From: Haloarcula mannanilytica
Lineage (GTDB): Archaea; Halobacteriota; Halobacteria; Halobacteriales; Haloarculaceae
Reading direction: 5' to 3'
Assembly (NCBI RefSeq): GCF_005406125.1
Contig: NZ_BIXZ01000005.1
Span: forward strand, 124,001 to 188,000
DNA length: 64,000 bases
Shown here: positions 28,147-31,890 of the stretch, one piece after another
Layout: each line of letters opens with the position of its first letter
How positions within the stretch are numbered: the first letter of the stretch is position 1
The notes under the pieces: generated by a model
What the model was told of the DNA's origin: nothing
What the model saw: the letters and a program-made list of their open reading frames with translations, nothing else
The model's database searches: none
Translations under genes and position numbers: made by a program

Positions 28147-29517
28147 ATGAGTGAGGATGGCGGCGTCGACGTTGCGTTTGTCGGCGTCACGGCCGTGATT
28201 ACGCTGTTCGTCCTTGGGTCGACTGTCGCCGTCGGCGGTGTCGGACTGTCGCAGGTAACGCAGTCGACGCAGTCGCTTCTGGTCCAGACGGACGACCGGA
28301 GTCCGTCCCAGCCGTGTGCCGAGGGCGAAGAACTGCTTGCGAAGTACAACTGGGAGGAAACCAACGACGGATACGGGTTCGTCTTCGAGAAGGGGGCGAA
28401 CGATACCGTGACGTTCGACGTGATAGCGTACGACGAGGGTCCCTCTGAGGGGCCGACCAACGTCGAGTGGACCTCCCAGGATCCCGTTGATGTCGTAGTC
28501 GTGAAGTCCGGCGGCGGCAGCGACATAAACCAGGCCAACGAACTGGACCCGCCCCAGATGTCGGGAACGGTCACATCAGAACAGGGCATCAGCTTCCTGG
28601 CTTTCTGTACGGTGCCGTCGACGCCAACGCCGACGGAAGAGCCAACTGAGGAGCCGACTCAGACCCCAACAGAAACGCCGACCGAAACGCCAACTGAGGA
28701 ACCGACTCAGACGCCAACGGAAACGCCAACTGAGGAGCCGACCGAAGAGCCCACTGAAGAACCCACGGAGGAGCCGACCCCTGAGCCAACTCCGGAACCA
28801 ACGCCTGAACCTACTCCGGAACCCACGCCTGAGCCGACGCCAGAACCAACGCCTGAACCTACTCCGGAACCCACGCCTGAGCCGACGCCAGAGCCGACTC
28901 CTGAACCAACTCCGGAGCCCACTCCCGAACCAACCGAAGAACCGACTCCGGAGCCGACCGAACAGCCGACTCGAACGCCGACGGAAACGCCGACGCAGAC
29001 ACCGGAGGAAACAGTTTACTGGCAGGTCGACTTCGGCCCCGGCGAAGCACCGCCCGATCCGCCGTATTACGGGGAAAACGACCGCGACCTGATGGCCGCG
29101 CTGGGGAACTCCGAGGATGGCGTCACGGAGAACCCGTCCGTATTGCACCGGAATCGTGAGGGACAGCTGAAGAACGTCTCTATCACCAATCGGTCGTTCA
29201 CCTTCGACGACCAAAACAATCCGACGGAGGTCACGGTGGAGTTCACGATTCCGGAGGACGGGGCGAACCGGACGCTCCACCTGGCCGCGTTCACCTTGCC
29301 GGGGCCGTTCAACTACTCTGAAGTCCCCGAGCAGGAGCTGCAAACGGTGACAAGCGGCACGTTCACCGCTGGCGAAACGGGGACGCTGACTATCAGCATT
29401 CCACAGCCGTCCAGTGGCACGACTGCGGCACTCCAACCGATGTCCGCGCTCACGCTGGTCGGGTTCGGAGGAACGGTCCTGGGAATGGCGGTCATCGGCC
29501 GACGACGAGAGCTCTAG
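28147..29517 (+). CDS. Surface protein with Thr-Pro-Glu/Thr-Pro-Thr repeats
   Basis: This 456-residue protein has an N-terminal hydrophobic segment ([20 protein letters not shown], about 8-33) and a first acidic domain. A repeat tract at residues about 159-286 is built from TPEP, TEEP and TPTE units, followed by a second domain with several N-x-S/T sequons. The C-terminal helix ([18 protein letters not shown]) ends in RRREL. Thr/Pro-rich tracts of this kind are typically O-glycosylated spacers in halophile surface proteins. The C-terminus resembles a membrane anchor but lacks an obvious PGF motif. Function, perhaps cell-surface or adhesion, is inferred. Confidence 0.75.
28621..29006 (+). repeat. 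In-frame Thr-Pro coding tandem repeat
   Basis: This tract of 12-bp units encodes T-P-E-P and T-E-E-P/T-P-T-E tetrapeptides. The central section is almost pure TPEP with alternating synonymous codons (CCT, CCG, CCA; ACG, ACT). Synonymous variation suggests an old repeat under protein-level selection, with some recent unit copying. Confidence 0.85.
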
Positions 29518-29599: not shown

Positions 29600-30187
29600 A
29601 TGATACTCTCTGATGCAGATATCCTCCGACGACTGGAACAGGGTGATCTCGTCGTCGAACCGCTCGACGACCCGGACATCCAGATTCAGCCGGCCAGCGT
29701 CGACCTCCGGCTCGGTCGGGAGTTCCTGGAGTTCCAGCACGCCAACATCCCCTGTATCCACCCGAACTCCGAGGATGAGGTCGCGGACTACGTCGAGGAA
29801 ACCGTCGTTGAGGAGGGCGGGGAGTTCATCCTCCACCCCGGCGATTTCGTGCTGGGGACGACCCACGAGCGCGTCGCCATCCCCGACGACCTCATCGCCC
29901 ATGTCGAAGGGCGGTCATCGCTTGGCCGGCTGGCAATCGTGGTACACGCAACTGCGGGCCTGTGTGACCCGGGGTACGAGGGTCAGATTACGCTCGAACT
30001 GTCGAACCTCGGCACTGCACCGGTCGCGCTCACGCCCGGGATGCGAATCTCCCAACTCACGTTCACGGAACTCAAGACGCCCGCCGACCGCCCGTACGGG
30101 GCCGAACGCGGCTCGAAGTACCAGGGCCAGTCTGGGCCGCAGGCGAGCAAGATACAGGGAGATAGAGAGTTCGGAGGCGATCAGTGA
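29600..30187 (+). CDS. dcd: dCTP deaminase
   Basis: This 195-residue enzyme deaminates dCTP to dUTP for dTMP synthesis; some archaeal members also hydrolyse dUTP. Signatures are [29 protein letters not shown] with the catalytic glutamate region, and [14 protein letters not shown]. The C-terminal tail ends GDREFGGDQ. The DNA for that tail (GAGTTCGGAGGCGA plus stop) is repeated twice downstream. The start MILSDADI at 29600 removes a 62-residue in-frame extension that overlaps the surface protein gene. The stop overlaps a micro-ORF. Confidence 0.95.
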
Positions 30188-30252
30188 TGCCCGCGACGCG
30201 TGGCATTACGGTATCGGTGAGAAACGAGGTTGAGTTCGGAGGCGACCAATGA
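30187..30252 (+). CDS. Micro-ORF 1 (21 residues)
   Basis: The ATG overlaps the dcd stop (TGATG), with GGAGG located about 12 bp upstream. The peptide ends VEFGGDQ, the same tail as dcd. It may be translated by re-initiation after dcd. It could be functional or a relic of duplication; no homologue is recognised. Confidence 0.3.
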   Translation: MPATRGITVSVRNEVEFGGDQ

Positions 30253-30323
30253 GTTGGCCGCGAGCACTGCGAGCGGGCCGTGAGTCTCGGCTACGAGCGA
30301 GTGAGTTCGGAGGCGACCAATGA
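30249..30323 (+). CDS. Micro-ORF 2 (24 residues)
   Basis: It starts inside the stop of micro-ORF 1 (ATGA overlap) and is preceded by GGAGGCGACCA. The peptide is Arg-rich (MSWPRALRAGRESRLRAS) and again ends EFGGDQ. Its position suggests translational relay rather than a folded product. Confidence 0.3.
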   Translation: MSWPRALRAGRESRLRASEFGGDQ

Positions 30324-30346
30324 CCGCCGCGGGGGGGCGGCGATAG
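30320..30346 (+). CDS. Micro-ORF 3 (8 residues)
   Basis: MTAAGGRR-stop overlaps the stop of micro-ORF 2 by 4 bp (ATGA) and ends exactly where the ThiN regulator ATG begins. The peptide is too short to fold, so any role would be to carry ribosomes to the next start. Confidence 0.25.
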   Translation: MTAAGGRR

Positions 30347-31243
30347 ATGCGATTCATCGAGGAGATCGTCGTTGATGACTTCCTGCCGACGTTTCGCTCG
30401 CTGCTGGCCGACGCCCTCAGAGAGCGCGGACTGACGCAGTCCGAGGTCGCTGACCTGCTGGGAATCAGCCAGAGCGCAGTCTCGAAATACGTCCACGGCG
30501 ACGTGGCTCGCCACGACGACCTGCTGGCCCATCGCGGCCTGGAAGAACTGGTCAAGCGGCTGGCGGACGGGCTTGCTGACGGCGATATGAGTTCCGTCCA
30601 GGCGCTGGTCGAAACGGAGGTGTTCATCCGCGAACTCGAACACGGCGGCGTGCTCGCGCAGCTACACGAGGACGCGGTCCCGGAACTCGAAGGGTACGAC
30701 GACGAGTTCGCCGTCCACGACCCGGACTCACAGCTCCGGTCGGCCGAGCGGACGCTCGCGTCGGTGCGGCGCGGACTCAGCGTACTCGAAAACACGAGCG
30801 GGTTCGCGACGCTCATTCCGGCGGTCGGGTCGAACCTCGTCCAGTGTCTCCCCGACGCCGAGAGCATCGAGGACGTGGCCGCCGTCCCGGGGCGGATTCT
30901 CGACGTGAAGGGACGGGCGACCATCCCGGCGGACCCGGAGTTCGGCGTCAGCGAACACGTCGCGTCGTTGTTGCTGGCAGCGCGGACCGCCGGCAGCGAT
31001 GCCCGCGCGGTGTTGAACGTCCGGTACGACGACACCGTCGTGGCCGCGTTGCGAGATTCTGGCCGGACCGTCGTCGAGTTCGACGCCGAGGAGAGCGTCG
31101 AGCCGGCTGTCGCGGCCGCGCTGGCCGACGACCCAGCGGTTGACGTGCTGTATCACACCGGCGCGATGGGTATCGAACCGGTGGTGTACCTGCTCGGGGA
31201 CGACGCCGTGTCGGTCGCCGAGACGGCGCGAGAAATCCTGTGA
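30347..31243 (+). CDS. HTH-ThiN domain regulator, second paralogue
   Basis: This 298-residue protein has the same architecture as the regulator at 21231. Its HTH is LTQSEVADLLGISQSAVSKY (about 28-47), followed by a ThiN-like domain with VGSNLVQCLPDAESIEDVAA and LYHTGAMGIEPVVYLLG. It follows dcd through a chain of overlapping micro-ORFs and overlaps a methyltransferase gene by 4 bp, so it is in a different context from the tenA island. It may regulate thiamine genes or a related cofactor; the two paralogues could divide targets. Confidence 0.85.
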   Translation: MRFIEEIVVDDFLPTFRSLLADALRERGLTQSEVADLLGISQSAVSKYVHGDVARHDDLLAHRGLEELVKRLADGLADGDMSSVQALVETEVFIRELEHGGVLAQLHEDAVPELEGYDDEFAVHDPDSQLRSAERTLASVRRGLSVLENTSGFATLIPAVGSNLVQCLPDAESIEDVAAVPGRILDVKGRATIPADPEFGVSEHVASLLLAARTAGSDARAVLNVRYDDTVVAALRDSGRTVVEFDAEESVEPAVAAALADDPAVDVLYHTGAMGIEPVVYLLGDDAVSVAETAREIL

Positions 31244-31890
31244 CCGACGCACAATCGTTTTACGGCCGGTGGGCGCAGGTGTACGATTGGCTGGCGAGTG
31301 CGCCCGGCGTGGCGTCCTGGCGCGACCGGACGGCGGATGCGCTGGCGCTCGCACCCGGCGACAACGTCGTCGAGATGGGCTGTGGCACGGGTACGAACGT
31401 CCCCCACCTTCGGGAGCGGGTCGGGCCGTCGGGCCGGGTCGTCGGTATCGACGTGACACGGGAAATGCTTGAGCGCGCACGCGAACAGTCCGCACGGACG
31501 GGCGAGAGCGTTCACTACGTACAGGCCGACGCCGCCCGACCACCGGTTCGAGAGGCCGACGCCGTGCTGGCGACGTTCGTCGCCGGCATCTTCGAGGACC
31601 CCGCGGCGGCTGTGGATGCGTGGTGTGACAGCGTCGTCCCCGGTGGTCGAGTCGCACTGCTGAACTTCCAGCGGAGTCCCAGCGCGCTCGCCGCCCCGTT
31701 GAACCTCGCGTTCGAGGGGTTCGTCCGACTTTCGGCACCAGGAACGCGGCTATCGAGGCGGTCACACGCCAGCGCCTTCGAGCGGCGAGTGGCGGCGGCC
31801 CGCGAGCGGCTCACCGAGCGGACGGTCGACCGACGCTACGACACCTTCGCCGGGGGGTTCCTCGGGCTGCTGTCGGGAACGGTCACGTAG
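31240..31890 (+). CDS. Class I SAM-dependent methyltransferase
   Basis: This 216-residue protein starts at a GTG overlapping the preceding stop (GTGA). The Rossmann motif I is VVEMGCGTGTN, with the acidic motif II at VVGIDVTREMLERA and VQADAARPPV as the third. It resembles UbiE/COQ5-like small-molecule methyltransferases; the acceptor is unknown. Coupling to the ThiN regulator suggests a shared operon running from dcd onward. Confidence 0.85.
   Translation: MTDAQSFYGRWAQVYDWLASAPGVASWRDRTADALALAPGDNVVEMGCGTGTNVPHLRERVGPSGRVVGIDVTREMLERAREQSARTGESVHYVQADAARPPVREADAVLATFVAGIFEDPAAAVDAWCDSVVPGGRVALLNFQRSPSALAAPLNLAFEGFVRLSAPGTRLSRRSHASAFERRVAAARERLTERTVDRRYDTFAGGFLGLLSGTVT

Follow-up and report, generated by a model that had tools for sequence, protein, structure and literature searches.

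The locus downstream of dcd in the window (the whole 64,000-nucleotide stretch of Haloarcula mannanilytica DNA that was analysed) raises the question of how a transcriptional regulator that starts 159 nt behind the preceding gene is supplied with ribosomes. In haloarchaea, Shine-Dalgarno (SD) motifs are not functional in de novo initiation, and in Haloferax nine of nine overlapping gene pairs were strictly coupled (PMC6728339). Reinitiation in Haloferax volcanii is lowered by about 60% by a gap of 13 nt and abolished by one of 22 nt (PMC10666635), and the final 15 nt of an upstream gene are sufficient in E. coli (Huber et al. 2019, PMC6728339; 2023, PMC10666635). Under the Haloferax distance limits, a promoterless regulator 159 nt behind dcd should be silent without a ribosome relay. 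The locus is likely to be such a relay, in which ribosomes are moved across the dcd-regulator gap by termination and reinitiation.

The dcd gene (29600..30187, forward strand, as are all features of the locus) encodes a dCTP deaminase of 195 aa (NCBIfam TIGR02274, E=2e-67; Pfam DCD) and is about 99% identical to the dcd of several Haloarcula species. The codons for its C-terminal EFGGDQ contain an extended SD, and the 21-nt tail of the gene, GAGTTCGGAGGCGAYCARTGA, is present in three copies with a spacing of 65 and 71 nt. Copy 1 is the native dcd end, GAGTTCGGAGGCGATCAGTGA (30167..30187, GGAGG at 30173-30177), and shows two differences from copies 2 and 3, which both read GAGTTCGGAGGCGACCAATGA (30232..30252, GGAGG at 30238-30242, and 30303..30323, GGAGG at 30309-30313). 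The number of 21-nt dcd-tail copies expected in dinucleotide shuffles of the window was 0.00, and a genome-wide pattern search (4.2-Mb genome) yielded the three tail copies plus one 3-mismatch site elsewhere. Micro-ORF 1 (30187..30252, 21 aa) has an ATG that overlaps the dcd stop (TGATG), with a GTG one codon upstream (30184) as a further possible start, and ends in tail copy 2. Micro-ORF 2 (30249..30323, 24 aa, MSWPRALRAGRESRLRASEFGGDQ) overlaps the micro-ORF 1 stop with its start codon (ATGA) and ends in tail copy 3. Micro-ORF 3 (30320..30346, 8 aa, MTAAGGRR) shares an ATGA with the end of micro-ORF 2, carries a G-run at 30331-30337 as an SD-like stretch and ends in a TAG that abuts the regulator ATG; the junctions from dcd to the regulator are thus, in order, TGATG, ATGA, ATGA and TAG directly followed by ATG. 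The initial annotation had reported three tail copies with a built-in GGAGG at 65- and 71-bp intervals and micro-ORFs of 21, 24 and 8 codons chained in this way, and all of its coordinates and numbers hold.

The HTH-ThiN transcriptional regulator (30347..31243, 298 aa; Pfam ThiN PF10120, E=1.8e-53; HTH_3, E=1e-07) would be the end point of the relay. A class I methyltransferase (31240..31890, 216 aa) starts in the regulator stop with a GTGA (-4) overlap, so that dcd, relay, regulator and methyltransferase together appear to form one translationally coupled run. Upstream of dcd, a gene at 28147-29517, probably encoding a surface protein, contains a long array of 12/24/48-nt repeats (28626-28994) which encodes Pro-Thr-Glu repeats (PEPTPEPT).

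In the proposed mechanism, ribosomes finishing dcd would stop at the start-overlapping stop codon, 6-9 nt behind the GGAGG in the last dcd codons, and would reinitiate on a micro-ORF some 20 codons long, the end of which is again a dcd-tail copy with its SD, stop and overlapping start; they would be passed in this manner, hop by hop, to the regulator ATG. The micro-ORFs would be carriers and not functional peptides, the open frame and the stop/start overlap being selected and the amino acids not. Tandem duplication, as well as recombination at the 21-bp copies, would add and remove units, and chain-breaking variants would be lost unless the regulator had gained its own promoter. Actual reinitiation of ribosomes at each hop is inferred from the published Haloferax experiments. 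It counts against the relay that a multi-hop design looks inefficient, since serial hops should lose ribosomes.

The junction was compared in 80 named genomes and further Haloarculaceae genomes, which gave 113 junctions once the regulator had been placed (112 from Haloarculaceae and one from another family in the same order); the start positions of the regulator were inferred by alignment. A strict chain comprised -4/-1 hops only, with the regulator at -4 to +1, and in a relaxed chain it was enough that each stop overlaps or nearly adjoins the next start up to the regulator; the chain criterion was set after the locus had been seen, its strict form being the published -4/-1 spacings. In 42 of the 113 junctions dcd and the regulator overlapped or were at most 9 nt apart, with a spacing of mostly -4, -1, 0 or +1. 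Regarding the 68 junctions with a gap of 10-330 nt, the chain was unbroken in 55 under the strict and in 63 under the relaxed definition; the gapped junctions L164 and L183 lacked both a chain and a clear promoter. The surveyed genomes carry 0 to 4 micro-ORFs per junction, bridging gaps of up to about 310 nt, and their spacers diverge between genomes. Chains are often built of dcd-tail copies which match the genome's own dcd end (e.g., GGTGGTGAC in L204 and GGAGGTGAC in L137). In close relatives with zero micro-ORFs the dcd-regulator junction is still directly abutting or overlapping, which argues that bridging of the gap is the least that the chain would do; metering of ribosome flow, as suggested initially, would be a further function. 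The comparison strongly supports the earlier proposal of a duplicated translational-coupling module, the copy number ranging from 0 to 4 with the stop/start overlap kept almost everywhere; random variation of the repeat among relatives with no preserved overlap, which had been named as the outcome that would speak against the proposal, was not seen.

Dinucleotide shuffles of the gap with its length kept gave 13.8 strict and 18.2 relaxed chains expected of 68, and when the phase was also randomised, 8.6 strict chains were expected versus 55 observed. The surveyed genomes are related and their counts are not independent; in a test thinned to genera (one random genome per genus) the chains observed were 12.6 of 16 versus 2.5 expected, and 0 simulated sets reached the observed value. 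As a control, 288 ordinary pairs of neighbouring genes on one strand, 20-330 nt apart, were taken from 800 kb of the own genome, using a home-made gene caller with a simple codon model, whose commonest gap, -4, fits the published pattern. Chains were present in seven of these pairs (2.4%) under the strict and in 12 (4.2%) under the relaxed definition, and in three of the 63 control pairs without an AT-rich element near -30 (Fisher p = 1.6e-20).

At about -30 relative to the regulator start, an AT-rich, TATA-like element was found in 6 of the 8 junctions without a chain or with a gap of more than 330 nt versus 3 of the 63 with a chain (p = 1.5e-5), and also in most of the widely spaced junctions of other, mostly Natrialbaceae, genomes. 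A promoter within the array is improbable, a TATA-like element being absent at the expected place. In the Halorientalis-type loci L182, L184 and L191 there is no chain, the TATA-like element TTTTTATG precedes the regulator, and 75-nt tail repeats are present in two of the three; their sequences suggest that these loci have probably switched from coupling to an own promoter. In L186 a TATA-like element precedes a regulator that is 1,025 nt distant, and dcd-tail units (the first of 66 nt) are present with the chain broken, as expected if a frame no longer needed is no longer kept.

That the frame has decayed where a promoter exists (L182, L184, L186) speaks against the view that the array is neutral tandem-duplication debris, in which the dcd end would be a slippage-prone minisatellite and the chain would arise incidentally when a stop/start cassette is copied in GC-rich, stop-poor sequence. 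The copy number has indeed changed frequently, in at least 18 steps on a tree of 34 genomes, and neighbouring units are often nearly identical (L113, L116, L153), indicating recent tandem duplication; these changes in copy number agree with units having been duplicated and having recombined at the 21-bp copies. Duplication fixes the cassette, however, and not the unit length, yet 47 of the 57 repeat units of 56-75 nt have lengths of 2 mod 3 (56, 62, 65, 68, 71 and 74 nt) and none of the 57 is 1 mod 3, a unit length of 2 mod 3 being the one that keeps the stop/start overlap needed by TGATG and ATGA chaining alike. The exceptions are the 63-nt units of one genus (0 mod 3; L116, L119, L120, L166), where several units are fused into one read-through ORF that still reaches the regulator start, and the 75-nt units of Halorientalis, where the chain is absent; one genome of the former genus mixes 71- and 63-nt units. 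Intact chains also occur without any tail copy (e.g., L093, L163, L180, L203), and chains are rare in shuffles and in ordinary gene gaps, so that debris is an improbable explanation. A rather unlikely possibility is that the same relay serves as a translational rheostat, with the copy number as an evolvable setting and the ribosome loss per hop determining the regulator:Dcd ratio. It would accord with copy numbers of 0 to 4 between close relatives and with the differences between the individual SDs and overlaps, reinitiation efficiencies varying widely between gene pairs in the published experiments (PMC6728339). A set ratio would demand a fixed number, however, and no lineage keeps one; zero-hop relatives are common within the same genus. 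The copy number looks either nearly neutral or finely tuned per species, and if the latter applied in the form of a rheostat, recombination would add or remove cassette copies and so adjust the protein ratios within an operon with no need for new promoters.

The micro-ORFs are widespread and many of them end in EFGGDQ, which would fit a role for the peptides themselves, as leader peptides or small proteins (an attenuator or a regulator of the ThiN factor). Their spacer codons show no synonymous excess, however: 24% of the codon differences were synonymous versus 20 +/- 7% in column-permuted data, and in a second spacer type 14% versus 18 +/- 6%. Synonymous changes being no commoner than under permutation, there is no sign of selection on the micro-ORF peptides as peptides; in addition, the common stretch GCGAGAAACGA is read in different frames in different genera, and the copies vary in number, zero included. 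We therefore give this explanation very little probability. A slippage product being decoded, as also suggested initially, finds no support either, since every copy is closed by a stop of its own and codon-level selection is not seen in the spacers. It is equally improbable that a mobile or dispersed repeat (MIRU- or REP-like) sits here by chance, or that the array is a structured RNA element. In their size (56-75 nt) and in being inserted where a stop and a start overlap, the units resemble MIRUs, but all three copies in the genome are at the dcd locus, a dispersed or mobile repeat being rejected on the basis of genome-wide pattern and BLAST searches, and the tandem SD-RTGA units outside dcd in 146 family genomes look like coding repeats or chance. 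The folding of the array RNA was no better than that of shuffles (z = -0.55). A phage or plasmid origin of dcd itself was rejected as well, the homologues there being distant only (<60% identity in phages, at best 70% on a haloarchaeal plasmid).

What is kept in the relay candidates, as far as their sequences tell, is the open frame, the stop/start overlap and the SD. An SD-like sequence lies ahead of 89 of the 90 micro-ORF starts and GGAGG ahead of 64 of the 90; GGAGG was found in 8 of the 288 control gapped pairs. The 3' end of the own 16S reads GGATCACCTCCT, which the dcd tail GGAGGCGATCA nearly complements. The first Gly codon of GGDQ is GGA in 59 of 101 coupled Haloarculaceae versus 0 of 26 uncoupled, mostly Natrialbaceae, genomes (GGA vs GGC). 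As a marker of coupling this codon was set aside, because the difference may reflect mere relatedness, GGA being retained in 6 of 8 recently uncoupled Haloarculaceae.

The statement in the initial annotation that no system like this one was described needs correction, mycobacterial MIRUs being a conceptual precedent, with senX3-regX3 as a MIRU-related example. The closest known process is termination-reinitiation (TeRe) in Haloferax volcanii and E. coli (PMC6728339, PMC10666635), which shares the ATGA/TGATG overlaps and the intragenic SD motif, the downstream gene depending on the upstream one. TeRe is a single hop between two real genes, whereas the dcd locus comprises up to four serial micro-ORFs, many of them derived from the end of the upstream gene. 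The stop/start overlap, or distance within about 10 nt, that characterizes TeRe is found in the window and in the family (55/68 strict, 63/68 relaxed), as is the SD motif inside the upstream ORF, which is usual but not essential for TeRe (89/90 micro-ORF starts). MIRUs, in the account given of Supply et al. 1997 in PMC12548453, are short repeats between genes, containing a small ORF that is coupled to the neighbouring gene at a spacing of -4; they are dispersed and thought to be mobile, their insertion being thought to be tolerated since coupling is kept. The small ORFs of the dcd array are also coupled to the neighbouring gene at -4 spacing. In contrast to MIRUs, the array occurs at one locus only in the own genome and in 146 family genomes, and its unit carries the adjacent gene's own tail, with lineage-specific copies matching each genome's dcd end; by distribution and dcd-tail content it is not a MIRU. 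Upstream ORFs which deliver ribosomes to a downstream gene (reviewed in PMC12548453) are likewise short ORFs that bring ribosomes and make no functional peptide, whereas the dcd micro-ORFs lie inside an operon, in series, and would pass on the ribosomes of the upstream gene. By analogy, the mechanism would work like termination-reinitiation, chained, and MIRUs are the only precedent found for coupling-preserving repeat insertion. The literature search, with subscription journals mostly outside it, gave only single-hop TeRe and MIRUs as published descriptions, and an earlier description may have been missed.

As a probable relay, the locus offers comparative evidence that translational coupling itself, beyond gene adjacency, is under selection in archaea: as the gap grows, a lineage would either keep an unbroken chain of meaningless ORFs or evolve a promoter. 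It would show how operons can expand without loss of coupling, and would explain how the SD of the next gene can dictate conserved C-terminal residues (EFGGDQ). Congeneric species with 0 to 4 hops are natural constructs for measuring the efficiency of serial reinitiation. Regarding annotation, relay micro-ORFs should not be called small proteins. An ordinary gene pair elsewhere in the own genome (C1, at about 138801, in L248) has a 37-nt gap spanned by a one-step chain, MAQRTQAGAGGR, whose end is G-rich and SD-like, and is possibly another relay.
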